Positions 15,859 to 55,646 of a stretch of 64,000 nt of DNA are shown in pieces. Numbering within the stretch: position 1 is the first letter of the stretch; every line of letters starts with the position of its first letter. The notes beneath the pieces are model-generated. The model was given only the letters and a program-made list of their open reading frames with translations. It searched no databases and had not been told where the DNA came from. The position numbers were made by a program, and so were the translations under genes. This DNA is from a bacterium OL-1 (GTDB lineage Bacteria; Actinomycetota; Coriobacteriia; Coriobacteriales; Atopobiaceae), in assembly GCA_000752675.2 (NCBI GenBank), contig LM994626.1, positions 137,004 to 201,003 of the forward strand. The letters are read 5' to 3'.

Positions 15859-16013
15859 CCCGGTCCCAGCGTTCCGCCAAAAAGTTTGCCCCGCATACGA
15901 TAGTGCAGCCAGGGCAAGCTTGAGGCGAGAAGCACGCAAAGAGAACGTAAGGTGATGGCGCCACGATCCTCCGCAGCGCTGGCCACGACCTTCTTCTCGT
16001 CCAAGCATTTTTC

Positions 16014-16111: not shown

Positions 16112-16663
16112 CTATGCGCCGTCACCATCACCGTCATTGGCGAGAAGCTCCACGCCCGTATCCGTATCGCGCACGTGCGTGCATCCCGGCGTGCGAGCAA
16201 TGCGCACAACCATGGCCAGGTCTCCGGCACACCCCGAGAGGTGCGTCCACGCAAGCGCCCAGGCAAGCGCCGGCCCGGCGACCAACACGCCTACCAGGAC
16301 CAACGCCCCCGTGACAAGCACCGACGGCGCCAGCAGCACCGCCACAAAGCGACCGCGCGTGAGCGGATTGCCCTCGGCGCGGGTGTAGAGCATCCCCGTC
16401 TCGTAGCCAAAGCGAATGCACACGCGGCCGCGTCCCAGCAGCAGAAACGCTGCCGCGTGGACAAGCTCGTGCACGGGCAGCGCTGCAACCGTCGCCGCCA
16501 CATAGACGGCCATCCACGCGCCAACGCCCATGCCCCACCCGTGCGTCACCACAAGATAGATTTCGCCCAGAAGGCCCACGACGAGAATTGCTGCCGAGAG
16601 GGTCACCACATGGCGGGTAAGCGGCGTGTCGCCCAGGATGTCGAGATGCGCAACGCTCCTCAC
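16112..16663 (-). CDS. DUF3267-type membrane metalloprotease-like protein
   Basis: 183 residues from a GTG at 16663 that overlaps the upstream stop as GTGA, with GGAG ahead. Several membrane helices are visible (near residues 18-38, 48-64, 110-135 and 135-155). The second ends in HELVH (65-69), an HExxH zinc-protease motif, followed by AAFLLLGRGRV. This arrangement fits the DUF3267 family of small integral-membrane metalloprotease relatives. No substrate is known. It is coupled to the TIGR02206 membrane protein. Confidence 0.8.
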   Translation of the reverse strand: MRSVAHLDILGDTPLTRHVVTLSAAILVVGLLGEIYLVVTHGWGMGVGAWMAVYVAATVAALPVHELVHAAAFLLLGRGRVCIRFGYETGMLYTRAEGNPLTRGRFVAVLLAPSVLVTGALVLVGVLVAGPALAWALAWTHLSGCAGDLAMVVRIARTPGCTHVRDTDTGVELLANDGDGDGA

Positions 16664-17424
16664 GACGCGTCTCCTTCTACGCTGCGCCGCCGCGAGGCTT
16701 GCCATGCGTGCAGCAGCACCACCGCCACGGCGAACGACGCCATGTACGGTACGAGGTAGCCGGGGTTGCCAAAGGCGCGCTCCCACCACTCGAGCGGTGA
16801 ACCCACGGCGGGGCTTGTCACAAAACCAAAGTTGGTACCAAACACTCCGTTGAACCACCTAAAGAATACCAGGTAGAGCACGGAGCCCGTCAGCGAAATC
16901 CACGCGTCGCGCCATCTTGGGGCCATATGCGGGTCGTCGAGCGCCATGAGCGAGACCGAGAAGATGAAGGCATGCTCCATGAAGCCGCTGATGCATGGTA
17001 GCGTGTATGGCGGGCAGTACGTCCAGCCAGGGAAGAGCATGGCGCAGAGACCACCGGTGAGGCCAAAGCAGAGCAGAAGCTCGCGAGTCACGCGTGACGG
17101 GGCGAGCGCATGCCACAGGCAGATGTACTCGGCAATGTTGCACAGGTGGAGCGGCCACCAGTTGGGCGAGAAGGTCCCCGTCTGCACCTTGAGCACGTCT
17201 CCCCACAGCAGAAGCGCGTTGGGGACGATGGCGGCAGCGAGGACAAGCCAGCGCCTGCCGCCGTGCCAGGAGTTGTCTGCGGGAAGGCTCCGATAGCCAT
17301 GGACGAGAAGCGCGATGACCGCCGCGCAGATAGCAAGCCAGAGCAGGTGCCAGGGTCCAAACATGGCAAAGCCCTGACCGCCCCACAGCAGCGGCTCCGC
17401 GACTATGACTTTCTCGATGCTCAT
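16660..17424 (-). CDS. TIGR02206 family integral membrane protein (YwaF-like)
   Basis: 254 residues with about seven hydrophobic segments. Family-type features are FGPWHLLWL near the start, NWWPLHLCNIAEY and the mid-protein stretch GLCAMLFPGW with FMEHAFIFS. These conserved Trp, His and Cys residues in membrane segments are typical of the YwaF/TIGR02206 family, whose function is unknown. The start ATG at 17424 is divergent from the metG-like gene. It forms a two-gene unit with the DUF3267 gene. Confidence 0.82.
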   Translation of the reverse strand: MSIEKVIVAEPLLWGGQGFAMFGPWHLLWLAICAAVIALLVHGYRSLPADNSWHGGRRWLVLAAAIVPNALLLWGDVLKVQTGTFSPNWWPLHLCNIAEYICLWHALAPSRVTRELLLCFGLTGGLCAMLFPGWTYCPPYTLPCISGFMEHAFIFSVSLMALDDPHMAPRWRDAWISLTGSVLYLVFFRWFNGVFGTNFGFVTSPAVGSPLEWWERAFGNPGYLVPYMASFAVAVVLLHAWQASRRRSVEGDAS

Positions 17425-20547: not shown

Positions 20548-21822
20548 CTAAGCAATGAGTCGAGCAATGGAGCCGCAAACAATACCCCAGAGGTCAAAGT
20601 CCTGGCCACCATAAACCAGCATCCATTGCTGAATCGTGTTGTTGAAGAAGTAGGCTCCAAAACCAACCAGGAAGACGGCAAGGACCCCCGCAACGGCAGA
20701 CCCGATGACTGCACCACGAACACCGCCAGTGCTGTTTCCAATGATTGCGGCAGTACCAATTTCAAAGAAGCACGTAGAAATGAGCGGGATGACCACTGTG
20801 GGGAACATTCCATTCGTAAGAAGAATGGTAATTACACTCGTCACCATTGCAACAAGGAAGCCAATGGTCAGCGCATTGGGTGCATATGGGAAAACGACAG
20901 GACAATCGAGAGCTGGAATAGCGTCGGGGACGACCTTGTCGGCAATTCCCTTGAATGCAGGAACAATTTCCGCAATGAGCATGCGCACGCCCTGGAGCAT
21001 GACGGTGATGCCCACACCAAACATAATCGAATGCTGGAATATATACACAAAAGCATCAGTGGTCGTGCCGGCATATCCCCAGACAGTTGCGGGGTCCATT
21101 CCGTTAGACAGAAGCAGGAAATACATGATGAGGTAGGTGACGGCAATTGCAATGGAGCCAGTGATTGAAATCTCACGCAGGAAGCTCAACGACTTGGGAA
21201 CGTTAAGGTCCTCAGTCGAGTGAGATTTATCTCCAAACGCTTTTCCGAGGAGCCCCGAAATCACCGAAAGGCATGTCGTAGGGTGGCCAATCGTGAAGTC
21301 ATCGCTTCCAGTTACACCCTTCACAAATGGACGCATAAGATTTGGCGAGACAACCATATACAGAGCAGTAAAAACAGTCGCAAGCACAATGAGCTTCACA
21401 CCGGAAAGGCCCGCATCAACACCGGCAGCTATGAAGACGAAGGGGAACCAATACAGCATGTGACCAGTGAGGAACACGCTCTTCCACTTTGTGAAACGCG
21501 CAACAAGCAGGTTAATCGCAAAGGCAAGTATCATGACGATACCGATTTGCGTGCCATATTCAGCGCTGATATCCACCGTTGTCGAAGGAACAGCCTGAGG
21601 CATAATCGCATTGAATGCAGCAGAAATGCCATCGATTGACTTTCCGGTGATGATCCCCGTTCCTGTTGTCAGAATGAAAAAACCAATAGCGGTCATCGCC
21701 GTCCCGCGAACAATCTCGCCAAAAGGCTTTTTCTGCAAAATCAAGCCAATCATTGCAATGAGAGCAATGAAGATTGCACCCTGTCCAAAGATGTCGTTAA
21801 CGATGAAACTGAGTACAGCCAT
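20548..21822 (-). CDS. ulaA: PTS EIIC, ascorbate (UlaA/SgaT) family permease
   Basis: 424 residues with about eleven hydrophobic segments. The sequence starts with a NDIFGQGAIFIALIAMIGLI helix and continues with LQKKPFGEIVRGT, GHMLYWFPFVFIAAGVDAGL and TIGHPTTCLSV, which fit the SgaT/UlaA family of PTS permeases. These transport and phosphorylate L-ascorbate or related carboxylated or keto sugars together with IIA and IIB. Separate IIB and IIA genes lie immediately upstream in the operon (2 bp and 350 bp). The substrate is not determinable from sequence; no ascorbate-degradation genes are in the island. Confidence 0.88.
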   Translation of the reverse strand: MAVLSFIVNDIFGQGAIFIALIAMIGLILQKKPFGEIVRGTAMTAIGFFILTTGTGIITGKSIDGISAAFNAIMPQAVPSTTVDISAEYGTQIGIVMILAFAINLLVARFTKWKSVFLTGHMLYWFPFVFIAAGVDAGLSGVKLIVLATVFTALYMVVSPNLMRPFVKGVTGSDDFTIGHPTTCLSVISGLLGKAFGDKSHSTEDLNVPKSLSFLREISITGSIAIAVTYLIMYFLLLSNGMDPATVWGYAGTTTDAFVYIFQHSIMFGVGITVMLQGVRMLIAEIVPAFKGIADKVVPDAIPALDCPVVFPYAPNALTIGFLVAMVTSVITILLTNGMFPTVVIPLISTCFFEIGTAAIIGNSTGGVRGAVIGSAVAGVLAVFLVGFGAYFFNNTIQQWMLVYGGQDFDLWGIVCGSIARLIA

Positions 21823-21824
21823 TA

Positions 21825-22127
21825 CTACTCACCTTTCCTCTCAAAACCATCAATAAACTTCAGAAACTTCTCTTCAACCTCCTGCTTATCCATCAGGCGA
21901 TTGATGGCAACAACAGGCACTTTCGCGTGCTGCCGGACTCGATCGGAAAGGTCAACTGAGCAGAAAATGACATCGCACGTATTTGCAGAGCACGTGGAAA
22001 CGTCGCCGCAAAACGATTCAATCTCAACCCCGTGTTTTTTTGCAATTTCCTCTATGCTCATCCGCAGCATGAGAGAAGAGCCACACCCAAAACCACACAC
22101 TGTTTGAATCTTAGGAACACGTTTCAC
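21825..22127 (-). CDS. PTS EIIB, ascorbate/lactose-type
   Basis: 100 residues. The phosphoryl-accepting cysteine loop near the N-terminus reads VCGFGCGSS, placing the active residue at C11, as in UlaB/SgaB-type IIB domains. It accepts phosphate from the IIA protein and passes it to the sugar bound to the IIC permease. It is 2 bp upstream of the IIC gene. Unusually Cys-rich for its size (also CGDVSTCSANTC), with no known consequence. Confidence 0.88.
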   Translation of the reverse strand: MKRVPKIQTVCGFGCGSSLMLRMSIEEIAKKHGVEIESFCGDVSTCSANTCDVIFCSVDLSDRVRQHAKVPVVAINRLMDKQEVEEKFLKFIDGFERKGE

Positions 22128-22174
22128 GTTCTGCCTCCTTCCGGGGCAATGGCCCCTAGATGTATTCCAACTCC

Positions 22175-22627
22175 CTACTCATTGAGCAGGGCAGAGAGTT
22201 CATCACGGGTCTTGCACTCTCGAATGCGCCTCACAAGATGGGCGTCGTCGAGAAACTTGTATGCGATGTGCTGCAGCCTCTCGAGATGAGATGCTTTGTC
22301 CTTGCATGCAAGGCACATCACCACGTACACCGGGTCATTATCGGAATTGAAGAAAATGGGAGAATCAAAGACAGCGACTGAGATATCTGTGCGCAATACC
22401 TCAGGAGATGGGGCAGCGTGAGCAAGCGCAAATCCTGGCATTAATACAATATAGGGACCGAGTTCTTTGACGCTATTGATCATGGAATCAATGTATCCGC
22501 CAAGAATCGCCCCCGACCCAACGAGAGGCTCCGACGCTTGCCTAATAGCGTCTTCCCAAGTGTTCGCTTTGAGGCCAATCCGAATATTGTCAATTCCGAT
22601 ACTCACGGGAGATTGCGATTGCATCAA
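22175..22627 (-). CDS. PTS EIIA type-2 (UlaC/mannitol-fructose fold)
   Basis: 150 residues. The phosphorylation site stretch MPGFALAHAAP gives the active histidine H70. The later FDSPIFFNSDNDPVYVV strand is typical of the fructose/mannitol-type IIA fold used by Ula systems. It relays phosphate from HPr to the IIB protein. It is intact and closely related to the damaged IIA domain at the end of the upstream regulator, which makes the operon hold one working and one truncated IIA. Confidence 0.88.
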   Translation of the reverse strand: MMQSQSPVSIGIDNIRIGLKANTWEDAIRQASEPLVGSGAILGGYIDSMINSVKELGPYIVLMPGFALAHAAPSPEVLRTDISVAVFDSPIFFNSDNDPVYVVMCLACKDKASHLERLQHIAYKFLDDAHLVRRIRECKTRDELSALLNE

Positions 22628-22658
22628 TAGCTCCTCTTATTCAGTCTCTTCATTGCTA

Positions 22659-22829
22659 TTAGTCATGCATTAGCGCAATGGTCTTGGTGCTGATATCTGA
22701 CCTCGCGAGACTCTCCAGATTTCTCGAGGCCCCAAATATCGAGGCAAGGGCCAGCAAATCGCTCTTGTCTTGGTGCTTTATTCCAAGAACAACAATCACG
22801 CGGACATTTTTTGCGTTCTCGCTCCCGAA
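22659..22829 (-). pseudogene. Severed C-terminal part of the regulator's IIA domain
   Basis: 56 codons in the same frame as the regulator directly follow its TAA (22830-22832) and run to a second stop at 22659. They read FGSENAK, then VRVIVVLGIKHQDKSDLLALA, which matches the end of a IIA domain (compare FFNSDNDPVYVV...ACKDKASHLE in the intact IIA gene). So the stop is a nonsense mutation or a read-through codon, not the natural end. Confidence 0.75.
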
Positions 22830-24608
22830 TTATATTGGCGAGCGGGATACAAGAATTGCCGCGCAGTCATCTGAGATGCCGTCATTAACACCGGCATGTA
22901 CATATGCGGTACCGGGGGTAAGCACCATATATGTGCCGAGTTCGCATACAGCGTGAATCATTGTTTCGACATAGCGAGACTCCATTAGTCCACGCTGGAC
23001 TAATGGCATAGCTGCCAACCGAATTGCACTCTGCCAAGATTCACATGCGTCTATTACTTGAATATCATCATCGAAGACGTAGTCCGTCACACGATGAAAC
23101 GTTTTCTCATGTTTCTGCTCAGCGTAGTGTTTGACAAACTGAGAACTCATTTTGGTGTAGGGAAGTTGGTTAACGTACCCCTTCACTCTATCGATATCGA
23201 CTTGCGTAAGCATTGGATTTACGCGTAATACCGGCGCCACCGACGTCGAGAACTCGCAGGTGGCAATTATCAAATCGACATCATTTCGCCTCAGGTATTC
23301 TTCTGCCTCTCTAAGAGATTTTGGGCCAACAAGCCGGCATCCGAATAGCAGTCTTTCCAAACGTGACTTCAGCAACACGCTAGTTGCAAGGCCGAAAGAG
23401 CAGACAAAGAGGATGGTTGGGATAAGATCCTCTCCTCCGCTTGCCTCAAAAATGGACGTAAGATACATCGCTATGTATGCTATTTCGCTTGGAGGAAAGT
23501 CAACGCCACATTCTTCAAGAGTGCTTGATGTGAACTCAAGAATGAGTGGAGAGGTGAGGCGAAGATAGGACTCCATATTCTCATCATGCAACTGAATATT
23601 GTTATGCTTTCGATAGAGCGCCGCTCGAATATGTTCCGTAAGCATCGAGATGACATCTTTGACTGCGACGCCATCAATTTGCTGATACTTACCGAGCGCG
23701 TCAACCAGTTGTCTCGAGAGCTTCTCCGCCTCTCCGTTCATGGCGTCAGCCTCTGTGCGTTCTCTTTGGGATGGAAACGGACCTATTCTCTGCGAGAGAA
23801 TTAAGGTTGCCAGATAGGTTCTCTCGTCCCGCTGGGAAACGTACTGCTCGAGCATAATACGGAGCGAATCTAGCGTCTCTGCGTTTGACGATAGTTCAAA
23901 TTCGTAGCTTGCCGACTGAATGGTGTGCCGGCGCTGGATGCGGCACAAAATATAGCAAACAAGAGTTTCGATATAGTCCTCATTGAGAAACCCCATGCCT
24001 AAGATGGCTTTCGCATGCTGGACAATTTCCTTTGCGAAGGGCATGCACAAACACATATCCTCATCGTGAGCGACCAAATCACTAATGCAGTCCGGACACG
24101 GGTTATCAGCGAGAAGCTGAACAAATGCATGGCGAATGTTTAATTCGTCTGCTTCTAAAGCCAGGCCTTTTCCTTGGCAGCGAACTACCGAAATGCACTC
24201 ATTCTTGAGCACCGCTTCCACTTCGGAGAAATCACGGATTGCAGTTTGCCTACTCACTCCACAATCATTTGCAAGAAGCTGAAACGTCGCTGAATCACGA
24301 AGCAGAAGAGATGCAGTCATTACTGACAGTCTCTCTTCAGGATCAAGGATTCGTCGGCCATACGTTTCAAGCGTCCGGAGAAGCGACTGCATGCTGCTTG
24401 GAGTGCCAACCAGTACGATTCCCTTACCGCGCTTACGCTCGAGGGTCACGTTATGAATATGAGCGAACTGCTCAAGCTGAGACAAGTCATTTCTCACTGA
24501 ACGGACACTCACATGGAAGCGGTATGCAACGTCACCAATGAGCACCGGTTCATCTTGCCGACAAAGCCATTTGAGTTCGCTAACCTGTCGATTCGTCAAG
24601 TCGAACAA
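22830..24608 (-). CDS. PRD-domain PTS-regulated transcriptional regulator (BglG/ManR type), truncated in its IIA domain
   Basis: 592 residues from a TTG at 24608 (GGGGTGA upstream). Domain order: N-terminal HTH (residues about 5-60, FHVSVRSVRNDLSQLE), a second HTH-like segment (CGVSRQTAIRDF), two PRD regions (about 170-390), a IIB-like domain with FVCSFGLATS (C403) and a IIA domain with active-site H571. Such regulators sense sugar flux by PTS phosphorylation and activate the adjacent operon. An in-frame TAA at codon 593 removes the last 56 codons of the IIA domain. The gene leads the PTS operon on the same strand. Confidence 0.85.
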   Translation of the reverse strand: MFDLTNRQVSELKWLCRQDEPVLIGDVAYRFHVSVRSVRNDLSQLEQFAHIHNVTLERKRGKGIVLVGTPSSMQSLLRTLETYGRRILDPEERLSVMTASLLLRDSATFQLLANDCGVSRQTAIRDFSEVEAVLKNECISVVRCQGKGLALEADELNIRHAFVQLLADNPCPDCISDLVAHDEDMCLCMPFAKEIVQHAKAILGMGFLNEDYIETLVCYILCRIQRRHTIQSASYEFELSSNAETLDSLRIMLEQYVSQRDERTYLATLILSQRIGPFPSQRERTEADAMNGEAEKLSRQLVDALGKYQQIDGVAVKDVISMLTEHIRAALYRKHNNIQLHDENMESYLRLTSPLILEFTSSTLEECGVDFPPSEIAYIAMYLTSIFEASGGEDLIPTILFVCSFGLATSVLLKSRLERLLFGCRLVGPKSLREAEEYLRRNDVDLIIATCEFSTSVAPVLRVNPMLTQVDIDRVKGYVNQLPYTKMSSQFVKHYAEQKHEKTFHRVTDYVFDDDIQVIDACESWQSAIRLAAMPLVQRGLMESRYVETMIHAVCELGTYMVLTPGTAYVHAGVNDGISDDCAAILVSRSPI

Positions 24609-25020: not shown

Positions 25021-25023
25021 TGA

Positions 25024-25054
25024 ATGAGACAAAGGGACTGTCCCTTTGTCTCAT
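25024..25054. repeat. GAGACAAGGG-family palindrome
   Basis: Perfect 14-bp arms ATGAGACAAAGGGA and complement around CTG, 8 bp past the asrC stop. Related palindromes occur at 33370-33400 and 53388-53418. Confidence 0.75.
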
Positions 25055-25061
25055 CTTTGTC

Positions 25062-26051
25062 TCATCGCAGGTTGTTGTCGCGGTCGTAGCGCTTGGTGTC
25101 CCAGTACACACGCGTGGCGCGCTGGCACTTCTCGGGAAGCTCGACGTCCTTGAGCGCCCACTCGCAGAACTCGTCGAAACCAACACGGTCGACGATGTAG
25201 CCAATATGCTCCTTGCCCTCGGGCGCGTTGGGGTCGATGTACTCCTCGATGAAGGCATAGGTGTTCTTTACGATCTTCACGATGGAGTCCTCGTCCACCC
25301 AGCGCAGCCAGTCCTGCGCCAGTCGCGGGTTCTGCTTGCCCGTTCGGCCCGTGATCTTGACGCGGAAGTAGTGCTCGGGGCTGCGCGTCCAGGCACGCGT
25401 GGGGCAGTAGACCACGCACACGCCACAGCCAATGCAACGGTCCTCGTCGCGCACGACCTTGCCCTTCTCCAGCCTGAGCGCGCTCACCGAGCGGCGCTGA
25501 CACCAGTCCACGCACTGGCCGCAGCCAATGCAGCGGTTGGGGTCGTACTGGGGCTCGGTCATGCCAATGATGCCAAAGTCGTTCAAGGCCACGTGCGCGC
25601 AGTCGTTTGAGCAGCCGGTGAAGGCCACCTTCACGTGGCGGTTGTTGGGGAAGATCTCGTGATCCATGCGCTGCGCGAAGGCCGTGGTGTCATAGCAGCC
25701 AAACGGGCACAGGCGCTTGCCCGGGCAGGCCACCACGTTGCGCGTGCCGCTTGCCAGGTAGCCCTGGGAGGTGTCCTCCTGGTTGATTTTGGTGTCCTCG
25801 ATGATGGCCTGGAGCTTCTCGTTGACCTTGGGCATGTCCTCCATGTGGATGCCCGGGATCTCCACTCCCTGTCGGTTGGTGAGGAAGATCTCTCCCCTGC
25901 CGTACTCCTCGGCAATCTCAACAATGCGCGCCATGCTCTTGGCGCTCACCAGGCCGCCGGGAACGCGCACGCGGCTGGCGGTCATCCCGCGCTCCTTGCT
26001 CACGCGGAACGCGTTCTTCTTCATGGCCTTGACGTCGATGTCCTGAATCAT
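25062..26051 (-). CDS. asrC: Anaerobic sulfite reductase subunit C (siroheme/Fe-S catalytic subunit)
   Basis: 329 residues. AsrC carries the siroheme where sulfite is reduced to sulfide. The nitrite/sulfite-reductase motifs are ACPGKRLCPFGC and AFTGCSNDCAH, the cysteines coupling a 4Fe-4S cluster to siroheme. Two ferredoxin-type clusters follow (CIGCGQCVDWC and CIGCGVCVVYCP). Length and order match the asr-type enzyme. It is the last gene of asrABC, 9 bp after asrB, and ends at a repeated palindrome. Confidence 0.94.
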   Translation of the reverse strand: MIQDIDVKAMKKNAFRVSKERGMTASRVRVPGGLVSAKSMARIVEIAEEYGRGEIFLTNRQGVEIPGIHMEDMPKVNEKLQAIIEDTKINQEDTSQGYLASGTRNVVACPGKRLCPFGCYDTTAFAQRMDHEIFPNNRHVKVAFTGCSNDCAHVALNDFGIIGMTEPQYDPNRCIGCGQCVDWCQRRSVSALRLEKGKVVRDEDRCIGCGVCVVYCPTRAWTRSPEHYFRVKITGRTGKQNPRLAQDWLRWVDEDSIVKIVKNTYAFIEEYIDPNAPEGKEHIGYIVDRVGFDEFCEWALKDVELPEKCQRATRVYWDTKRYDRDNNLR

Positions 26052-26060
26052 GGCGGCCTC

Positions 26061-26858
26061 CTAGTCCAGCAACTGCTTGCTCTGGGTGTAGTTGAAGACG
26101 GGCCCATCCAGGCAAACGTACTTCTCGCCTATGCGGCAGTGACCGCACTTGCCCAAGCCACAGCACATCTTTCGCTCCTGGCTCACCCAGATGTTCTCCT
26201 CGGCAAGACCAAGCTCGAGAAGGCCCTTCACGGAGAAGCGCATCATGGGCGGCGGTCCCACCACAATGGCCTGCGCCGTGGAAGGATCGCGCAGCGGCAA
26301 GTCCGGAATGAACTTGGTCACCAGGCCAACGTTGCCCTGATATCCCTCGGGCGCGCCGTCCACGGTAAGGATGAGGTCGACGAGGTTTTCCCAGCGCGCA
26401 AGGTCGTCGCGGAAGAGCAGGTCGTTTGGGCTGCGGAAGCCCACGATCACGTGCTTGTCCTGCGGCGTGGAGCTTGCGGCCAGCGCCTCTACCACGCCTC
26501 GCACCGGGCTCACGCCCGTGCCGCCGGCCACCACGACGCACTCGCCGTCCACGTAGCGCTCCACCTCGAAGCCGTTGCCGTAGGGGCCGCGCAGGAGAAG
26601 CGACTGGCCCTCGTAGGCCTCGAACACCTCGTTGGTCACCACGCCCACGCGGCGGATGGTAAGGTCGACCGACTCGCCAGGCACGATGCCGCTTACGCTG
26701 ATGGGGGCCTCGCCGTATTTGGGGACGGAGACCTCGAAGAACTGGCCGGGGCGAACCTCTCCGCCAAAGGCCATGCGGAAGGTGTACTCCTTCTTGGTGT
26801 GCTTGATGACCTTGAGCACCTTGGAGGAGAAGGGAATGTACGGGTTGTTACTAGGCAT
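26061..26858 (-). CDS. asrB: Anaerobic sulfite reductase subunit B (FAD/NAD-binding)
   Basis: 265 residues from the ATG at 26858, overlapping the asrA stop by 8 nt. A ferredoxin-reductase-like fold: FAD-binding barrel with the flavin segment near LLRGPYGNGF, the NAD(P)-binding stretch VVVAGGTGVSPVRG, and a C-terminal iron-sulfur motif CCGLGKCGHC with a further Cys (YVCLDGP) as in dihydroorotate-dehydrogenase electron-transfer subunits. It passes electrons from NADH through AsrA to AsrC. Confidence 0.94.
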   Translation of the reverse strand: MPSNNPYIPFSSKVLKVIKHTKKEYTFRMAFGGEVRPGQFFEVSVPKYGEAPISVSGIVPGESVDLTIRRVGVVTNEVFEAYEGQSLLLRGPYGNGFEVERYVDGECVVVAGGTGVSPVRGVVEALAASSTPQDKHVIVGFRSPNDLLFRDDLARWENLVDLILTVDGAPEGYQGNVGLVTKFIPDLPLRDPSTAQAIVVGPPPMMRFSVKGLLELGLAEENIWVSQERKMCCGLGKCGHCRIGEKYVCLDGPVFNYTQSKQLLD

Positions 26859-27927
26859 CACGGGCCACGCTCCCCTCATGCTGGGCGTCCCACTCGTCGA
26901 CTGCATCAGAGAGCTTGTTGACACACGCGGCGAAGCTGATGTACTCGGGACAGACGTCGTCGCAACGGCCGCATCCCACGCACATGTCGTAGCCAAAGCG
27001 CTGGCGGAAGTCATACACCTTGTGAAGCACCTTGAAGCGCATGCGCTCGCCGCGCTGCTTGCGGTAGCTCGCGCCGCCGGCCACCGTGGAGTAGCCGTCG
27101 ATCATGCAGCTGGCCTGCACGCGGCGCCTCTCGCCCACCCGGCCGTTCTCGGTGTAGGCAACGTCCTGCATGGTGAAGCAGGTGCAGGTGGGGCACACAA
27201 GCGTGCAGCGGCCACAGCCAATGCAGCGGTGGTTGTACTCGTCCCACACGGGGCTGGTGCGAAGCTCGAGCGGAACCGTCTTGGGGACGCACACGTGTAC
27301 TTCGTTCTGGGTGACGAGCGCGGGCACCACGTCGCGGCTGGCCGTAGCGTAGCGCTCGAAGAGCGGAAGGAGGGACTCGTTAGCAACGGCGCACGCATAG
27401 CCCTCGCCCGAGCGCTCGAGCGAGAACTCCCAGTTGTCCGGTGCAACGTTTGACCCCATGTCCACGCAGAAGCAGTGCTCGAAGGTCTGGGGGCAGCCGA
27501 GAAGCACAAAGTGCACGCGGTCGCGGATGCGCTTATAGAAGCTGTCCTCGGGGCCGTTGTGCAGGTACATGGCGTCGAGGCGCTTGACGCCATGCAGGTC
27601 GCAGGCACGCATGAGCACAAGGACGTCGCGCGCGTCCCCCTCGCGGGCGGGGTCGCCGGCAGCGCCGATGCCCCCTGCCTCGCACACCTGGTCCTCGGTG
27701 TAGTAGAAGAGCGTCTGCGAGAGCGGCGTGAGCAGCTCCTTGAAGGAGTAGTCGCTCTTGGCGTCAAGCTCGATCTGCGACGCGTTGTCCACAAAGTCGT
27801 AGATCACCTGGTCCACGTCGGTGAAGCGGCCAGCGCCCACCTTGCGGACCGGCGCAAAGACGAGGTAGTCGCGGGCAAGCTCGCGAACCAGCCCGTCAAG
27901 CCCCTCCCCGTCAAGCACGTATCCCAT
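26851..27927 (-). CDS. asrA: Anaerobic sulfite reductase subunit A (4Fe-4S electron carrier)
   Basis: 358 residues from the ATG at 27927, with GGGGAGA ahead. Two 4Fe-4S motifs occur in the C-terminal half (CIGCGRCTLVCPTC and CVGCGRCDDVCP), separated by about 75 residues, as in AsrA. Earlier cysteines (RACDLHG, LLGCP, HCFCVDMG) belong to the family N-terminal domain. First gene of asrABC; it begins 59 bp downstream of the ABC ATPase gene on the same strand, so read-through from that operon is possible. Confidence 0.93.
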   Translation of the reverse strand: MGYVLDGEGLDGLVRELARDYLVFAPVRKVGAGRFTDVDQVIYDFVDNASQIELDAKSDYSFKELLTPLSQTLFYYTEDQVCEAGGIGAAGDPAREGDARDVLVLMRACDLHGVKRLDAMYLHNGPEDSFYKRIRDRVHFVLLGCPQTFEHCFCVDMGSNVAPDNWEFSLERSGEGYACAVANESLLPLFERYATASRDVVPALVTQNEVHVCVPKTVPLELRTSPVWDEYNHRCIGCGRCTLVCPTCTCFTMQDVAYTENGRVGERRRVQASCMIDGYSTVAGGASYRKQRGERMRFKVLHKVYDFRQRFGYDMCVGCGRCDDVCPEYISFAACVNKLSDAVDEWDAQHEGSVARDA

Positions 27928-27985: not shown

Positions 27986-28747
27986 TCACGCGCGTGTGAG
28001 CGCATATCGCCACAGGAGTTTGGGGTCGTCCTGCTCGGCCACGCCAACCCCAAGCGCCGGGGCCACCGCCCCGCTTGCCGCCACGACGTCTGGCGGGCCC
28101 TGGGCAGCCACCCGGCCGTCCGCCATGAGGCAGACATTGTCGGCAGACGAGAAGGCCGACTCCACGTCATGCGTAGCAACAACCACCGCAAGTCCCTCTC
28201 CCGCAAGTCCGCGCAGCAGGCCTGCGAGCTCCCAGCGCCTGTGGGCGTCCAGGTGCGCCGACGGCTCGTCGAGAAGGAGCGTGCCCGCATCTTGGGCAAC
28301 AACCATGGCCAGGTAGGCGCGCTGAAGCTCACCGCCAGAGATGTCTGCGAGGCGTCGGTCGCGAAGACCCCACACGCCCGTGAGCTCCATGGCCTGGCGC
28401 ACCAGGCGGCGATCCCTCTCGCCTAAGGTCCTCACGACGCCAAGCGTGGCAAAGCGCCCGTGGCAGGCAAGGGTGTAGACGTCCATCTGCGGGCACCCCA
28501 GCTCCTGCGGCAGGTAGGCCAGGTGCCGGGCGCGCTCCCTGTGGCCAAGGCTTCCGAGCTCCGCACCGTCCAGAAGGATGCCCCCGCCATGCGGGAGCAC
28601 GCCCGCAAGGCAGCGAAGGAGCGTGGACTTGCCGCAGCCATTCTTTCCCACCAGGGCGCTCACCTGGCCGTCATTGAGCTCGAGCGAGTCCACGGCCAGA
28701 GAAAAGCCGCCGTCGCGCACAAACGATAGCCCCTTCACACCAATCAC
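27986..28747 (-). CDS. ABC transporter ATP-binding protein, iron-siderophore/heme/cobalamin (FecE) type
   Basis: 253 residues from a GTG at 28747 that overlaps the permease stop as GTGA. Walker A VGKNGCGKST (residues about 33-42), Q-loop YLPQEL, signature ISGGELQRAY, Walker B LLLDEPSAHLD and switch H in ATHD are all intact. It is the ATPase of a FecCD-type metal-chelate importer. The ATPase is complete, but its permease is split by an insertion sequence and its binding protein carries an amber codon, so it is probably without function here. Confidence 0.9.
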   Translation of the reverse strand: MIGVKGLSFVRDGGFSLAVDSLELNDGQVSALVGKNGCGKSTLLRCLAGVLPHGGGILLDGAELGSLGHRERARHLAYLPQELGCPQMDVYTLACHGRFATLGVVRTLGERDRRLVRQAMELTGVWGLRDRRLADISGGELQRAYLAMVVAQDAGTLLLDEPSAHLDAHRRWELAGLLRGLAGEGLAVVVATHDVESAFSSADNVCLMADGRVAAQGPPDVVAASGAVAPALGVGVAEQDDPKLLWRYALTRA

Positions 28748-29439
28748 GCGGCCTCACCCCCACGGCCCGCCGCCACGGAGTGCGAGCCGTGCTTGCGCCC
28801 GCGCCGTGCCAGGAGCGCCATGAAGAACGGCGCGCCGAGAAGCGCAAGAACCAGGCCAACCGGCAGCTCGTAGGGAAACGCAATGGTCCGCGCCACGAGG
28901 TCGCACGCAACCAAGAGCGCAGCTCCCCACAGGGCGCAGAGAGCGAGCCCCTGACGAGTTGTGGGGCGCGCCCACATGCGCACCAGGTTGGGGACGATGA
29001 GGCCCACAAAGCTGAGAAGGCCGCAGATCGAGACGGCCGAGGCGGCCAGAAGCGCCGCGCAAGCGATGGTGCCAAGTCTGCAGGCGCGTACGTCGAGGCC
29101 AAGGCCGTGCGCGGCCTCGTCCCCCAGCGCCAGGAGGTCTATGCCGCGACCGAGGTAGGCCCCCGCAACAAGCGCCACCAAGAGGGCGGGCACGCAGAGC
29201 GCCAGGCTCTGGTAGGTAACGCCCGAGAGGCCGCCCAGCGTAAAGGACACGCGGTCCGTAACCGACTCGGGCCACACGACCACAATGGCGTCGATGGCAG
29301 CGCTCATGAGGCTCGAGACAGCGACGCCCGCAAGGACCACGGTCCCGCGACTGGTACCAGCACGGCGCGATACCAGGTAGACCAAAAGCGTGGCGAGAAG
29401 CGCGCCGACAAAGGCCATGGCTTGCCGGAGCACCGGATG
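28744..29439 (-). pseudogene. FecCD-family permease, C-terminal part cut by IS21 element
   Basis: 231 codons survive from His (29439) onward. The FecCD family segments are clear: LVSRRAGTSRGTVVLAGVA, ALGDEAAHGLGLDV, LSFVGLIVPNLVRM and the final ELPVGLVLALLGAPFF. Removing the IS and one target copy (GATGT) joins it in frame to the N-terminal part at 31956-32324, reading ...LWMPG|HPVLRQ..., a protein of about 353 residues, the normal length for the family. Confidence 0.92.
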
Positions 29440-29604
29440 TTGTGTTTGATAGCCTCCTAATTGCACAAAAGAGCAGAGCGGCTTTTCACTCGTGAGCATG
29501 AAATAGTTTCACAGATAAGCAAGAGGGACACGTCCTGGCACCGCAAACATTGCCATGCTCGATTCGCAGGGCCCAACCCACGGATCGAGAGGCAGGAAAG
29601 GAAG

Positions 29605-31104
29605 ATGCTGGACATGTCCCAGATAGAGAGGATACGCGACATGCTCGCGGATGGCTATACGCCGACGGAGGTGAAGGAGACCCTCGGCGTGTCGTACCCA
29701 ACGATCAGGAAGTATGCTCAGGAAGACGACTTCTCGCCCCAAAGGCCCAAGGCCTCGGAGCGCCCGAGCAAGCTCGATCCCTACAAGGCCCTCATCGGCG
29801 AGATGCTCGAGGAGGACCGCCACTGCTACCACAAGCAGCGCCACACGGCCAAGCGCGTCTTCGAGAGGCTGCGCGCAGAGCATGGCTTTAGCGGCAGCTA
29901 CTCCACGGTGCAGCGCTACATGAAGGAGATTCGCTCTAAGGGGCCGAGGGACGAGTCGGTGAGGCTCGGATGGGACCCGGGCACCATGCAGGTCGACTTC
30001 GGGCAGGCCGACTTCGATTATGCCTTCGGCGGCGGCAGGGCAAGGATGCACTACCTGCCGATGTCCTTCCCGTACTCCAACCACGAGGTGTGCGAGGTCT
30101 TCGCGGACGAGAAGGACGTCTGCGTCTGCCAGGGGCTCAAGGACTGCTTCGAGCACATCGGGGGCGTTCCCCCCGTCATCGTGCTCGACAACGCCACCGA
30201 GGCCGGGAGGAGGTGGCGCGACGTGATCGTGGAGTCCGACCTCTTCCGCCGGCTCAGGCTGCACTACGGCTTCACGGCACGCTTCTGCAACCCGAACGCC
30301 GGCAAGGAGAAGGGAAACGTCGAGGGCAAGGTCGGCTACACCAGGAGGAACTTCTTCGTGCCCGTGCCCGAGGTGGACGACCTTCAGGACTACAACCGAG
30401 GGCTTGCCGAGACGCTTGATGCCCACTCCGAAAAGCGGCTCCACTACGAGAAGGGACTCAGCTGGGCCGACCTCTTCCAGGCTGACAAGGCGCATCTTCT
30501 GCCTCTTCCAAAAAAGCCCTTCGACGTCGTCAAGTGGGCGTCGTGCACGACCGACGGCTACGGAAGGATCACCTTGGACGGCTGCCATCGCTACCTGGCG
30601 TCACCCTCACTCGCATGTGTTTCGCTCACGGTGGGCGTGCGCGCCTTCACGGTGGAGATAGACGCCCCTGACGGGACGCCGCTAAGGACCTACCGCAGGC
30701 GCTCCGGCAAGCTCTTCACCTCCGACGAGGACCCGCTGGCACTGCTCGAACCGCTTTCGATGAAGACACGCGCCTTCACGCAGTCCAGCGTGTGCGCGCT
30801 GTTCGACGAGGATGTGAGGGACGCCTTCGGCTCCATGGCGACCGACGAGCTGAAAGGCCAGGTCAAGGTGATCTCGAGGCTCGCACAAGCCTATGGCATG
30901 GGGATCACCGCCCAGGCGTTCTCCGAGGCGCTGCGGGCCACCCGCAAGATGCGCCCCGCTGATGTCGAGATGTGCTGCGCCAGGATCCGCGCGCAAGGCA
31001 CCGGAACCAAGGCAGCGCGTGAGCTGGGCACCAGGCTCGCCGACTACGACGTCTTCATGCTCAGGGGAGGCGATCGGGATGGCCAGGCTGCCGCAGAAGG
31101 TTGA
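29605..31104 (+). CDS. istA: IS21-family transposase IstA
   Basis: 499 residues from the ATG at 29605 (AGGAAAGGAAG ahead). An N-terminal HTH (MLADGYTPTEVKETLGVS, then PTIRKYA) is followed by the DDE integrase core: first Asp in MQVDFGQADF, second in VIVLDNATEAG, and the Glu in GKEKGNVEGKVGYTRRNF. The C-terminal part contains the RLAQAYG and QGTGTKAARE segments. Together with IstB it catalyses cut-and-paste or replicative transposition of the element. Confidence 0.93.
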   Translation: MLDMSQIERIRDMLADGYTPTEVKETLGVSYPTIRKYAQEDDFSPQRPKASERPSKLDPYKALIGEMLEEDRHCYHKQRHTAKRVFERLRAEHGFSGSYSTVQRYMKEIRSKGPRDESVRLGWDPGTMQVDFGQADFDYAFGGGRARMHYLPMSFPYSNHEVCEVFADEKDVCVCQGLKDCFEHIGGVPPVIVLDNATEAGRRWRDVIVESDLFRRLRLHYGFTARFCNPNAGKEKGNVEGKVGYTRRNFFVPVPEVDDLQDYNRGLAETLDAHSEKRLHYEKGLSWADLFQADKAHLLPLPKKPFDVVKWASCTTDGYGRITLDGCHRYLASPSLACVSLTVGVRAFTVEIDAPDGTPLRTYRRRSGKLFTSDEDPLALLEPLSMKTRAFTQSSVCALFDEDVRDAFGSMATDELKGQVKVISRLAQAYGMGITAQAFSEALRATRKMRPADVEMCCARIRAQGTGTKAARELGTRLADYDVFMLRGGDRDGQAAAEG

Positions 31105-31846
31105 TGCTCGCTACGAGAGGCTGAAGCGCGCCGAGCGCGAGGGTGGCTCCATCCTGCTGTCGAAGGCGACGATGCGCCACGTGGCCGAGACGGCCACCGA
31201 TGGGCAGTTCGCGTTCTTCGAGGATGCGCTCGCAAGGGAGTACGCGCTCAGGCACCAAAGCCGGATAGCGCGCCTCAAGCGGCAGGCGAACTTTCCCTCG
31301 CAGAAGGGCTTCGATGGCTTCGAATGGTCGGGAATCGTGTTTCCCCGCGGCTTCACGAGGGACGACATGCTCTCGCTTGCCTTCATCGACGCCCACGAGG
31401 ACCTGGTGCTCTTCGGAGGATCAGGCAATGGAAAGACCCATACCGCGATAGCGTTGGGGCTGCTCGCCTGCGGTGAGGGCAGAAAAGTCGCGTTCTGGTC
31501 GACGGCGGAGCTGGTAAGCGAGCTGAGGCGTGCGAATAAGGAGGGGACGACACAGGACGCGCTCAGGAGGCTCGACAGGTGCGACCTCATCATCCTGGAC
31601 GAGTGGGGGTACCTTCCCACCGATCCCGACGGGGCAAGGCTCCTGTTCCGGGTGGTGTCGATGTGCTACGAGCGGATCGCGCTCATTCTCACCACCAACA
31701 TCGAATTCTCCAGATGGGGTGAGATCTTTGCCGACGACGACATGGCCAAGGCGATGATGGACCGCATCGTCCACCACGGCAGGCTCATCACCTACGACAG
31801 GGAGTCGTACAGGGTCAAACACGCGCTCATGCGCGGGGAGTTGTAG
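31079..31846 (+). CDS. istB: IS21-family helper ATPase IstB
   Basis: 255 residues from the ATG at 31079, overlapping istA by 26 nt, with AGGGGAGG ahead. AAA+ type ATPase of the IstB/DnaC family: Walker A FGGSGNGKTH, Walker B LIILDEWGYLP, and sensor region ALILTTNIEFSRW. It acts in target selection and transposition together with IstA. Confidence 0.93.
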   Translation: MARLPQKVDARYERLKRAEREGGSILLSKATMRHVAETATDGQFAFFEDALAREYALRHQSRIARLKRQANFPSQKGFDGFEWSGIVFPRGFTRDDMLSLAFIDAHEDLVLFGGSGNGKTHTAIALGLLACGEGRKVAFWSTAELVSELRRANKEGTTQDALRRLDRCDLIILDEWGYLPTDPDGARLLFRVVSMCYERIALILTTNIEFSRWGEIFADDDMAKAMMDRIVHHGRLITYDRESYRVKHALMRGEL

Positions 31847-31955
31847 GAGAAGAAAGGATTGGTGCCAGGGCGACGCTCGTGCGTGAAGAATCTTCACGCT
31901 GACGTGTGAAACGAACGGATGCTGTTTTGTGAAACGAGAGGTTGACGAAACACAG

Positions 31956-32324
31956 ATGTCCTGGCATCCAGAGTGCCACCACGAGCCAGAGCAGGCCCGC
32001 CCCGGAGTTGACGCCCATCACGCCCGGCGACGCAAGGTCGTTGTCGAGCGAGGCCTGCAGGAGCAGACCGGAGCAGGCAAGCGCTGCACCGCAGCACACG
32101 CCCGCTAACACACGGGGAAGGCGCACGCTCAGGAGGACGAGTGTGGCAGTGGCGTCCGCGGTGCCGCCGGAGGCAAGGGTCGCGAGCGCCTGGAGCGCCT
32201 CGCGCGTGCCCAAGGCTGCGGTGCCGGCGAGAAGCGAGGCCAACGCGACCAGTACGAGCGCAACGGCGCCCAGAACGCACACCCAGCGGCTCCTCTCGCT
32301 TGTCCCCTCTCGCCCATGGGCCAT
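31956..32324 (-). pseudogene. FecCD-family permease, N-terminal part cut by IS21 element
   Basis: The first 123 codons are present from the ATG at 32324. The first membrane helix (VCVLGAVALVLVALASLLAG) and the family motif VRLPRVLAGVCCGAALACSGLLLQ are visible, followed by ASPGVMGVNSGAGL. The IS target sequence interrupts after LWMPGH. It is 4 bp downstream of the binding-protein gene. See 28744-29439 for the other half. Confidence 0.92.
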
Positions 32325-32328
32325 GTGG

Positions 32329-33252
32329 CTACCCCTCTTGCTCTCGGAGGTTGAGGATGTAGGAGTACGCCTCTGCCCAGCGCTCGTTGGGCTTGTACTC
32401 AAAGAGGTCCTTGGGCAGGACATTGATCCTGCCGGCCTGCACCGCCGAGAGCGACGCCCACGCAGGCTGCGCCTGGAAGTCCTGCTCGAAGACCTCCTTG
32501 GCCTTGTCCTCGTCGCCACGGGGGATGACAAAGACATAGGTGGGATCAGCGGCCACAATGGCCTCGACCGAGAGGTCGTCAAGCGAACTGTCGTCTTCGG
32601 CAACGTTTGCCATCTGCAGGTTGTCGAAGATCTCACAGGCAAAGTAGTCGCTCTTCGCGACCTTCGCCTTGGTGGACGAGACGAGAAGTGCCAGGTAGCT
32701 TACCTGCGGAAGGTCGGCGGCGCTCTCCTCGACTTTTGCTATAGCGTCAGAGACGTCTGTGACGTTTGCCTGGTAGAGGTCGTCTCGGCCGCTCATCTCG
32801 GTGAGTGCGGCCATGTGGGTTGCGTAGTCGTCGAAGTTGTTCACGTCAACGTCGCGCCACGCGATGCCGGCGCTGTCCAGGCTGGACTCAAGCTCCTTCT
32901 GCGTGGGGACCTCGGCGGTGATAAGCACCAGCGTGGGCTCAAGCGCGACGATCTTCTCCAGGCTGGGCTTGGCGGGGGTGCCCACGGTCTCCACGTCTGC
33001 AGGCAGGCCGTCGAGGTCTGTGGCGTCCTCGGTCACACCCACGGGCGGCATGCCAGCAAGAATTGCCATCTGAGCAAGCGAGCGGGACGCAGCGACAACG
33101 CGGGCGCTTGTGGCATCGTTCGAGGTGGATGCGTCCGACGCGCCTTCCGACTGCGTCGAGGAGGCACTCGCATCTGGCTGCGCAGCGCACCCGGCAAGGA
33201 TGCCAGCACCAAGGAGCACCGAGAGGCGCAGGAATTCTCTTCTCTAGAGCAT
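32329..33252 (-). pseudogene. Iron/heme ABC transporter substrate-binding lipoprotein with amber at codon 3
   Basis: GGAGGG precedes ATG-CTC-TAG; the frame then continues RREFLRLSVLLGAGILAGC, so ATG at 33252 and TAG at 33246-33244 lie in the same frame. Restoring the stop to Ser (TCG, one base) would give SRREFL, a twin-arginine export motif, then a lipobox LAGC. The mature part (about 290 residues) shows the FecB/BtuF features: AGMPPVGVTEDATD, VGTPAKPSLEKIVALEPTLVL. Start from an internal GTG at 33219 would lose the charged signal-peptide region, so the gene is probably dead unless the amber is read. Confidence 0.8.
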
Positions 33253-33369
33253 GGTCCCTCCCGCACAGACTGGTGGCGCTGGAATCTTCTCGTCCATCAT
33301 ATCCCTAGCTCCATAATGGCAGAACGATATCAAGACCTGCATCGCTATTCTGTTGGCTTCACAACAGAA

Positions 33370-33400
33370 ATGAGACAAGGGGACAGTCCCTTCGTCTCAT
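33370..33400. repeat. GAGACAAGGG-family palindrome
   Basis: Arms ATGAGACAAGGGGAC and GTCCCTTCGTCTCAT around one A; 13 of 15 positions pair. A decayed relative follows at 33442-33466 (GAGACAGAGGG-AAA-CCCTTGTC). It is in the 236-bp gap between the divergent binding-protein and aldo/keto reductase genes. Confidence 0.7.
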
Positions 33401-34659: not shown

Positions 34660-36381
34660 TTGTCGAAAAACATTGAGCTCAAAAGGCACGGATTCACCGA
34701 CCAGGCAACGGACAATGACTCGCTGAATGCAAGCAGCTTCTGCTCAGGCATCGCAACCTTCATCGAGACGTGCGATACCCCCATGACGATAGCCATTCAG
34801 GGCGGCTGGGGCTCCGGAAAGTCGACCGCACTGCAGCTCATCCAGAAAGAGCTTCGCAACTACAACATCAGCAACCCTGACAATCAGATAGCCTATTCGA
34901 CCTTTAACACTTGGCAATATTCCACGCTCAAGGCAGATGATTCGTTACCCGTATACCTGCTGGCAAATATGCTTCATTGCATTAGCGAGGCAGTAGGAGA
35001 CGAAGGGTCCGAGCGGGCACGGCATGCAATAGACTCGCTCCGTACCGCGCTGAGCAGAGCGGCAGGCATTACCGCCGAGGTAACTCTTGGTTCAGATACT
35101 CTAGCCGAATTCCTCACCAAACTCCTTGCACCTCCCACCGGAGACGGCTCTGAAACGCTGCCTGCTGAAACGTTGAAGAACAACATCTCTGAACTCATTG
35201 ATGACTGCGTGAACCCCACCGACAAGAAGGGAAAGCCCAACAAGCGACACATTAGCCGAGTGATTCTCTTCATCGACGACCTTGACCGCCTGCGACCAGA
35301 AACTGCATTCGAACTTCTTGAGGCAATGAAGAACTTCCTGGACTGCAAGCACTGCGTCTTTGTCCTAGCCGTCGACCGCGATGTGGTCTACCAGGGTATC
35401 GAGAGCAAGTACGGCAACAGCATCACGCCGTTCAAGAAGCGCCAGTTCTTCGACAAAATCATCCAGCTGCCGTTCAACCTCCCTACGGAGCAGTACAACG
35501 TGCCCCATTACGTCGAGACACTTCTCAGCCAGAAGCTCCCGAAGTCCGAGTCCGACCGCTATTCGGAGCGCTATGCAAATCTGTTTGCCACGATCCTTGG
35601 ATCCAACAACCCCCGCACCATCAAGCGAGTCCTGAATGTTTGGGACCTCTACCAGCTCATCTATCCACAGTATGTTTTGGATGAAGATGACAGGCTGTTC
35701 CTATTTGCCACACTTCTCCTCAAGTACCGCGACGAGGCCAAAGAGCCGGATGAAAAAGACCGGAACACGTACAACGACCTAAGTGCGCATGCTCGAGAAG
35801 GAACCGATCCGTTAAAGGACTATCTCAATGAGGAGCTCGATAAGAAAGACTGCGTCATAGATACCTTGATTAACGCGTTTGGCATGCGTGCTGCAGATGG
35901 TACCTACAACGAGGAACTTCTTGATAAGTTCACTGATTTTCTCAGTAGCATCTCTGCAATCTTCTCGCCAGAAGTTACTCCCTTTTCAAACCAGGAGCCA
36001 GAGTCAGGCAGCGTTCTCAACAAGCTCAGAGAACATCTGAAGAGGGAGGGCCTCGTCGAAGTGCACACGTCCTCAAAGGAGCGTTATGACTTCAAACGCC
36101 CCGGGTCATCGCTCGTGCCCTGCTCCCTTCGTGACAAGAGTAGCGGAGTTTACGTTGTTTTCAAGTTTGATGTAAATCGAGCAACATCCAGCGTGCTTGA
36201 TGACTTTAGGGAACAATCCAAGAAGATTGCACAAGGATGCTATCTCCACTGCAGAGAGGGACAAGGCTGGGCAACGCTCATCGGAATCACCAGAGACTTT
36301 AACGACGATTCCGTAATAGCGGCAGAACGGTATATCGACAAGTTTGTCAGCTGGGCGGAGAGCGATAACCCCAGCTTCTAG
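34660..36381 (+). CDS. KAP-family P-loop NTPase
   Basis: 573 residues from a TTG at 34660 with GGAG close ahead. The Walker A motif GGWGSGKST (48-56) and Walker B ILFIDDLDRLRP (202-213), followed by FVLAVDRDVVYQGIE, define the KAP NTPase family (Kidins220/ARMS and PifA relatives). Unlike many KAP proteins no pair of membrane helices is evident in the insert. The C-terminal 150 residues have no recognised domain. GC is below its neighbours and no partner gene is adjacent. PifA-type KAP proteins limit phage growth, so a defence role is possible but unproven. Confidence 0.85.
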   Translation: MSKNIELKRHGFTDQATDNDSLNASSFCSGIATFIETCDTPMTIAIQGGWGSGKSTALQLIQKELRNYNISNPDNQIAYSTFNTWQYSTLKADDSLPVYLLANMLHCISEAVGDEGSERARHAIDSLRTALSRAAGITAEVTLGSDTLAEFLTKLLAPPTGDGSETLPAETLKNNISELIDDCVNPTDKKGKPNKRHISRVILFIDDLDRLRPETAFELLEAMKNFLDCKHCVFVLAVDRDVVYQGIESKYGNSITPFKKRQFFDKIIQLPFNLPTEQYNVPHYVETLLSQKLPKSESDRYSERYANLFATILGSNNPRTIKRVLNVWDLYQLIYPQYVLDEDDRLFLFATLLLKYRDEAKEPDEKDRNTYNDLSAHAREGTDPLKDYLNEELDKKDCVIDTLINAFGMRAADGTYNEELLDKFTDFLSSISAIFSPEVTPFSNQEPESGSVLNKLREHLKREGLVEVHTSSKERYDFKRPGSSLVPCSLRDKSSGVYVVFKFDVNRATSSVLDDFREQSKKIAQGCYLHCREGQGWATLIGITRDFNDDSVIAAERYIDKFVSWAESDNPSF

Positions 36382-55019: not shown

Positions 55020-55646
55020 ATGGCTACATCACAGGACACCCCCGTTCGAAACATCGTCTTTGACATGGGCGGCGTGCTTCTCGACTTCAATGGTCCGCTG
55101 TTCTCGCACGTCTTCACTGCCAACGAGGAGGACGCCGCGGCACTCAACGCGGCGCTCTTCGCGAGCCCCGCGTGGCCGCTGCTCGACGCAGGTGCCATAA
55201 GCGAGGACACCATCGAGCGCATGGCCCAGGCACGGCTTCCCCAGCGGCTCTGGCCCAACCTGCACGAGTGCATGGTGCACTGGCACGAGCACCAGCCCGT
55301 CTTCATGGAGACAAACGCCGTTGTCGAGCGGCTGCACGCCGCGGGGTATGGCTGCTACGTGCTCTCCAACGCGGGTACGCGCTTTTGGAGACAGAAGGAC
55401 CGCATTCCCTCCTTCCCTCTTATGGACGGCTGGGTGGTCTCGGCGTTCGAGCGCATCATGAAACCAGATCCAGCAATCTACCTGGTGCTCTGCGAGCGCT
55501 ATGGCCTTAATCCAGCAAGTTGCCTCTTTGTGGACGACAACGCGGACAACGTGGCGGGTGCCAGGGTCGCCGGCATGCAGGCGCACCAGTTCACGAGCGC
55601 CCAGGAGCTGGAGGGCTATCTCAGGGAGCTTGGCCTTAGATTTTGA
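55020..55646 (+). CDS. HAD-family hydrolase (subfamily IA, YihX-like)
   Basis: 208 residues from the ATG at 55020, GGAGGAG ahead. Motif I FDMGGVLLDF (D with Gly two positions later, as in YihX-type sugar phosphatases), motif II CYVLSNAG, Lys in ERIMKPDP and motif IV CLFVDDNADN. Probably a phosphosugar phosphatase; substrate unknown. Ends before a bidirectional terminator. Confidence 0.88.
   Translation: MATSQDTPVRNIVFDMGGVLLDFNGPLFSHVFTANEEDAAALNAALFASPAWPLLDAGAISEDTIERMAQARLPQRLWPNLHECMVHWHEHQPVFMETNAVVERLHAAGYGCYVLSNAGTRFWRQKDRIPSFPLMDGWVVSAFERIMKPDPAIYLVLCERYGLNPASCLFVDDNADNVAGARVAGMQAHQFTSAQELEGYLRELGLRF

Follow-up and report, generated by a model that had tools for sequence, protein, structure and literature searches.

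An interrupted importer at the head of a sulfite reductase operon

The window, that is, the whole stretch of 64,000 nucleotides that was analysed, contains an operon in the order binding protein, permease, ATPase, asrA, asrB, and asrC, with the importer genes at its head. The features of the locus are as follows:

33348..33369, no strand: perfect inverted repeat TTCTGTTG-N6-CAACAGAA, a possible operator (from the sequence and its conserved position)
33256..33262, minus strand: ribosome-binding site GGGAGGG of the interrupted gene (read from the sequence)
32329..33252, minus strand: interrupted gene of a Peripla_BP_2 substrate-binding lipoprotein, with a twin-arginine signal and an LAGC lipobox (translation, Pfam)
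33244..33246, minus strand: TAG, codon 3 of the binding-protein gene (a Gln or Glu sense codon in the seven closest orthologs)
31955..32324, minus strand: 5' part of the FecCD permease gene, cut by the insertion sequence (PF01032)
31955..31959, no strand: right copy of the target-site duplication GATGT (sequence)
29441..31954, plus strand: IS21-family element with TGT...ACA ends, on the opposite strand to the operon (istA and istB models)
29436..29440, no strand: left copy of the target-site duplication GATGT (sequence)
28744..29440, minus strand: 3' part of the FecCD permease gene (PF01032)
27986..28747, minus strand: importer ABC ATPase, intact open frame (PF00005)
26851..27927, minus strand: asrA, anaerobic sulfite reductase subunit A, intact open frame (TIGR02910/TIGR02911 scan)
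26061..26858, minus strand: asrB, intact open frame (TIGR02910/TIGR02911 scan)
25062..26051, minus strand: asrC, siroheme/4Fe-4S-type sulfite reductase subunit, intact open frame (NIR_SIR)

We denote the window's genome G000 (10 contigs, 99.3% completeness), its congeners G001-G006, and a genome of a sister genus G027. The importer falls in the type II ABC class (Fe-siderophore/heme/B12), with PF01497 in the binding protein (87.5 bits against a cut-off of 27.5), PF01032 in both permease parts, and PF00005 in the ATPase. It shares the three-component make-up (Peripla_BP_2, FecCD, and ABC ATPase) and the binding-protein fold with IsdE/HmuT/BtuF-type importers but scores below the IsdE and BtuF cut-offs and is set in an asrABC operon. 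The downstream genes match the AsrABC anaerobic sulfite reductase: asrA and asrB pass the equivalog cut-offs of TIGR02910 and TIGR02911, and AsrC was identified by its NIR_SIR domains rather than by an AsrC-specific model. The difference from AsrABC systems is that here an ABC importer precedes the asr genes in one operon, in a family without hemB and hemC (37 genomes).

The inverted repeat lies 96 bp upstream of the start and is found in the same place in G001-G006 with at most two mismatches, making it a possible operator of the importer-asr operon. A genome-wide regulon of this palindrome was discarded as a candidate, the pattern counts being about equal to those of a reversed control pattern.

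The amber codon and its counterparts in relatives

The binding-protein gene opens with the codons ATG CTC TAG at 33252-33244, its ATG 3 nt from the GGGAGGG at 33262-33256. The interval 32329-33252 translates as ML*RREFLRLSVLLGAGILAGC..., and the next in-frame stop is the TAG at 32331-32329. The part 3' of the amber codon comprises 296 residues and matches Peripla_BP_2 (PF01497, E 1.2e-24), bearing out the preliminary description of an amber codon placed after a good ribosome-binding site in a binding-protein frame that continues beyond it. It is the only Peripla_BP_2 gene found in G000.

A search for the binding protein over 60 genomes gave a match in 20, with close orthologs (72-98% identity) in G001-G006 and G027. 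All seven have the same start site and RR motif as G000 and a sense codon at the amber position, so the frame is not a chance open frame. The preliminary description had derived the TAG from a serine codon (TCG) and pointed to other strains for comparison. The closest orthologs, from related species, do carry a sense codon in seven of seven cases, but they do not support an ancestral Ser: the codon encodes Gln in G001, G002, G003, G005, and G006 and Glu in G004 and G027, and Ser precedes the RR pair only in the distant G012. Another distant relative, G013, has Asp at this position, and the binding protein of G015 lacks the RR pair altogether. A programmed amber conserved across species was ruled out by the sense codon in the closest orthologs.

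Five of the seven orthologs start with ATG, G005 with CTG, and G027 with GTG. Two in-frame ATGs further upstream, at 33300 and 33297, run into the same TAG; they are unlikely as the true start, the upstream frame being shifted in G005 and G006. The features of a Tat lipoprotein (twin arginine, hydrophobic stretch, and lipobox) were recognised by eye in all seven orthologs as RREFLRL...LAGC or equivalents and, because TatC is present in 8/8 genomes of the genus, the RR motif is credible as a Tat signal.

Ribosomes starting at 33252 would halt after two residues. With a two-residue product no Tat or lipoprotein signal would be made, and the binding protein would therefore not be delivered to the membrane. 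The gene is thus predicted to be an ordinary nonsense pseudogene of recent origin. Like other host-associated nonsense pseudogenes, it has a single in-frame stop in an otherwise open gene, and its partner is also broken; it differs from them in that the stop lies after the start codon but ahead of the RR pair in the export signal and in that two congeners carry separate lesions in the same operon.

An IS21-family element splits the permease gene

The insertion in the permease gene noticed in the preliminary description proved to be an IS21 element, splitting the FecCD gene and flanked by the 5-bp GATGT duplication. Its genes istA (from about 29461) and istB (to 31846) score above the NCBIfam cut-offs, and its ends carry the terminal TG/CA. 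With istA, istB, TGT...ACA ends, and a 5-bp duplication all shared, we found no notable difference from known IS21-family elements. The element is absent from the permease site in all eight relatives compared. Full-length copies of about 100% identity number four in G000, and none was found in G001.

The IS21 copy would break the permease independently of the amber codon, and the importer should therefore be dead even with some read-through. Of the stepwise importer loss proposed in the preliminary description, the premature stop and the IS21 insertion support a probable loss: the G000 strain probably has no functional importer.

Age of the lesions and damage in the congeners

After codon 3, the binding-protein genes of G000 and G001 differ by 11 synonymous and 7 nonsynonymous changes, giving a Ka/Ks of 0.20. 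Comparisons of G000 with the other five congeners gave 0.12-0.20, and four pairs of relatives gave 0.15-0.17. Codon changes private to the G000 gene amount to two nonsynonymous and one synonymous. Over the four importer segments, private changes (nonsynonymous/synonymous) total 9/11 in G000, 3/19 in G001, and 3/15 in G003, with the largest share of the G000 changes in the ATPase (5 nonsynonymous, 7 synonymous). The nonsynonymous excess of G000 has a Fisher P value of 0.04, or 0.02 against G001 and G003 pooled; both values are uncorrected and come from a recombining operon. In asrA-C the corresponding counts are about 9.5 and 45.5 in G000 vs. 3 and 32 in G001 (P = 0.24), and asrC has a Ka/Ks of 0.01 between the two genomes.

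From the substitution counts together with the near-identical IS copies, both lesions, amber and IS21, appear recent, and there is a hint that selection on the importer genes taken together may already be relaxed in G000. Signs of recombination are seen in the operon, as G002 and G003 are nearly identical in the ATPase and asrA but less so in the binding protein. Ordering the two lesions in time by substitution counts was rejected on account of too few changes and the recombination within the operon.

The importer frames are unbroken in four of the seven genomes G000-G006, namely G001, G002, G004, and G006, and the permease is without stops in these four and in G027. Two of the six congeners with a close ortholog, G003 and G005, have lesions of their own in the operon. 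The permease of G003, a metagenome-assembled genome, lacks 22 codons in frame and runs into the ATPase as one 576-codon reading (L071 1617-3347); in G005 (L073 5769-9509), the permease contains a stop, asrA is frameshifted, and the usual start of asrB is not an ATG. The eighth genome of the genus, G007, has an asrC of 98% identity, and a close ortholog of the binding protein is absent.

As a control for operon damage, we used 26 flanking frames that are open in G000. In the fetched regions of G005, 24 were found, and beyond the initial tenth of their length none was interrupted; one has a stop within that initial tenth, and one is cut by the edge of the fetched piece. Thirteen were found in G003, of which one is cut near a contig end, one has its N-terminus in two pieces, and one has a stop at residue 3. 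Three of the less conserved frames, 15031-16008, 16112-16858, and 55029-55586, have stops past the first tenth in at least one of G001, G002, and G006, perhaps reflecting true starts that lie downstream. Damage thus appears to be repeated in the importer-asr operon across the genus, the lesions of G003 and G005 being known from assemblies alone.

Sequencing error, read-through, and restart

A sequencing or assembly error would leave the binding protein intact and the IS insertion alone as real. The amber codon is known from one assembly of one strain, and the remainder of the frame is open with an ordinary Ka/Ks. The quality of that assembly, in contiguity and completeness, speaks against an error; moreover, a single-substitution stop is expected from neutral decay in an operon that already carries an IS, and operon lesions recur among the congeners. 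We thus regard an error as improbable.

Still less probable is a bypass of the stop, by amber read-through or by restart at CTG 33231 or GTG 33219, yielding a Sec-type lipoprotein: the ordinary Ka/Ks of the gene would agree with it, and the product from CTG 33231, beginning MRLSVLLGAGILAGC, has a short signal yet also a lipobox, but no CUA anticodon is found among the tRNA genes, most of the inspected genes end in TAG, each of the seven closest orthologs has the RR motif as well as a Shine-Dalgarno sequence ahead of the upstream start, and the permease is disrupted regardless. The two restarts would place 14 or 10 residues, respectively, ahead of the lipobox Cys, and such a short signal could allow some export.

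The counts behind these statements are as follows. An RF00005 search of G000 found 46 tRNA genes, of which ARAGORN named all anticodons (30 and 14 elsewhere in the genome and 2 in the window), and none of these RF00005-found genes has the anticodon CUA. Amber suppression, raised in the preliminary description, thus gained no support from this computational check, and a suppressor tRNA is ruled out among the 46 found. The stops of 31 hand-picked window genes are TAG in 23 and TGA in 8, and the terminal stop of the interrupted gene is also TAG. A low-scoring extra tRNA-Gln(CUG) lies at G000:C2:202823-202896, 1.8 kb outside the window; similar DNA is present in G001 and G003 and is split in G002, and the site is perhaps an attachment site of a mobile element. 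As a near-cognate reader of the amber codon this tRNA was rejected, since DNA shared in this way cannot explain a change private to G000.

Siroheme synthesis and the distribution of the importer

AsrC is a siroheme-type enzyme, and we searched for the genes of tetrapyrrole synthesis in the family. Neither hemB nor hemC was found in any of the 37 family genomes, some of which are incomplete; each was found in 9 of 23 order-level relatives and in 11 of 14 control genomes. Because both genes are missing from all 37, siroheme synthesis is not expected in the family, which nevertheless keeps a siroheme-type AsrC.

All 10 family genomes that have both a close ortholog of the binding protein and a full-length asrC (G000-G006, G012, G013, and G027) carry the importer and asrABC as one cluster. 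Across the 37 family genomes, importer and NIR_SIR proteins occur together in 13, the importer alone in 1, NIR_SIR alone in 1, and neither in 22 (Fisher P value 5e-8 by genome and 8e-5 by genus, with kinship ignored). The singletons are G015, which has the binding protein without asr and with no permease found at the locus, and G010, which has NIR_SIR only. Among the 23 order-level relatives (E up to 1e-30), none has both, three have the importer alone (G038, G043, and G053), and six have NIR_SIR alone; the idea that importer and NIR_SIR generally go together outside the family was thus discarded. Taken over all 60 genomes, the counts are 13 with both, 4 and 7 with importer or NIR_SIR alone, and 36 with neither (P = 2e-5), an association carried by the family.

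The neighbourhoods of diverged importers were also examined. In G007 and G022, importers of about 35% identity lie about 3-3.5 kb from a NIR_SIR protein other than AsrC, and their loci also contain a Cys/Met PLP enzyme, ThiF, and a CbiK-type chelatase. CbiK stands beside the binding protein in G007, G022, G036, G012, and L084, in the last two directly before the binding protein of an asr-type cluster; in G036 no NIR_SIR gene is nearby, and importer and asrC are about 380 kb apart. Of the 14 family genomes with the importer, 10 (among them G000) lack CbiK and would therefore need uptake of metallated siroheme or another chelatase. According to tblastn, the importer directly adjoins a NIR_SIR-like gene in L086 (binned Lachnospiraceae) and L088 (binned Clostridia); a further contig, L087, is too short to show importer neighbours.

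Of the order-level relatives, G053, which has hemB and hemC, carries its importer at a distance of about 2 kb from a SirC-like gene; next comes a cluster containing hemC, cobA/hemD, and hemB, in which a hemA was recognised by reading the sequence. G038 has none of hemB, hemC, and NIR_SIR. There the gene that immediately precedes the binding protein scores 533 with the NirJ2 model against a cut-off of 500; this NirJ2-type radical SAM gene lies directly 5' of the diverged binding protein (L144 8173-10250). NirJ2 is a radical SAM protein assigned to siroheme-derived tetrapyrrole pathways. Around the G043 importer, only a MerR-type regulator and no tetrapyrrole gene was recognised. A weaker relative of the binding protein in G040 adjoins a cobU-like gene (94 vs. 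a cut-off of 161), which suggests B12.

A probable tetrapyrrole ligand

Models of known ligand classes scored far below their NCBIfam cut-offs: 87.4 vs. 298.65 bits for IsdE (TIGR03659), 37.8 vs. 234 for BtuF (NF002894), 38 vs. 320 for Fe-dicitrate, and 33 vs. 252 for FhuD. The iron or iron-chelate ligand assumed in the preliminary description is thus not shown by these matches. The AlphaFold model of the mature binding protein has a mean pLDDT of 85.7, and its fold matches are headed by Lmo2184 and heme-bound IsdE, followed by siderophore proteins (HtsA, FecB, and YfiY), BtuF, and heme proteins. Lmo2184 binds hemin. Neither solved-structure nor fold searches singled out one ligand.

The neighbours and the co-occurrence make it probable that this is a tetrapyrrole (siroheme-type) importer, inactivated in the G000 lineage. 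Since none of the 37 family genomes yielded hemB or hemC, the importer would have provided the siroheme enzyme AsrC with a tetrapyrrole, the likeliest being siroheme or its precursor sirohydrochlorin, and the G000 strain would now hold AsrABC without its cofactor route. The absence of broken frames in the asrABC of G000 fits a recent loss and would also fit an AsrABC that is independent of the importer. We consider the whole reading, a recent nonsense pseudogene next to an IS-broken permease and the loss of a tetrapyrrole route to AsrC, somewhat better than an even prospect.

Two other ligands were weighed. The ligand could be heme or a corrinoid, remodelled or used in proteins other than AsrC, and the nearest NCBIfam model is indeed that of the heme-binding IsdE, though at 87 vs. 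299 bits, with IsdE and BtuF among the best fold matches and the weaker G040 relative beside its cobU-like gene; against this, most of the loci read have the importer in a cluster with AsrC or another NIR_SIR protein, and we find a heme or corrinoid ligand rather unlikely. A ferric siderophore or other iron chelate, with the adjacency to asrABC reflecting a shared iron-rich anaerobic metabolism, would explain the family-level matches to iron and siderophore binding proteins and the importers without NIR_SIR outside the family. However, presence within the family tracks the siroheme enzymes, with one exception in each direction, and the recurrent neighbours are CbiK, a siroheme-synthesis cluster, NirJ2, and other sulfite reductases, leaving a siderophore an unlikely ligand.

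The amber codon alone is ordinary, and the larger interest lies in the union of importer and asrABC in one operon in a family that has neither hemB nor hemC, as this raises the question of how siroheme is supplied to a sulfite reductase in bacteria without tetrapyrrole synthesis. We tentatively propose, as a possibility still short of an even chance, that the operon encodes an importer of siroheme or its metal-free precursor, letting bacteria that do not make tetrapyrroles run a siroheme sulfite reductase on cofactor from the gut community, and that G000 is a natural importer knock-out whose AsrABC is not yet decaying. If true, siroheme would be a common resource of the gut community, and these bacteria would need donors to produce sulfide. 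In the open-access literature, outside which fall most subscription journals and all preprints, we found no paper on uptake, transport, or import of siroheme or sirohydrochlorin; the nearest match of the open-access phrase search on siroheme import was an Aspergillus paper with the phrase "siroheme auxotroph".

Other features of the window

Near the operon, a 573-codon frame at 34660-36381, between an aldo/keto reductase and a hydrolase, has the look of a KAP-type P-loop NTPase when its sequence is read, and the alignments of G002, G004, and G006 skip it. A PTS EIIC-GAT permease within 20548-24608 was not found in the fetched regions of G001-G006, and the PRD regulator beside it was found only in the G004 region among these, in two pieces. 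Near-identical hairpins of the GATGAGACAAAGGGAC type lie at 33370-33400, just upstream of the operon, and at 25023-25055, just downstream of asrC. The hairpin pattern has four matches in the window against 0.22 expected, and none of 100 shuffles contained four.
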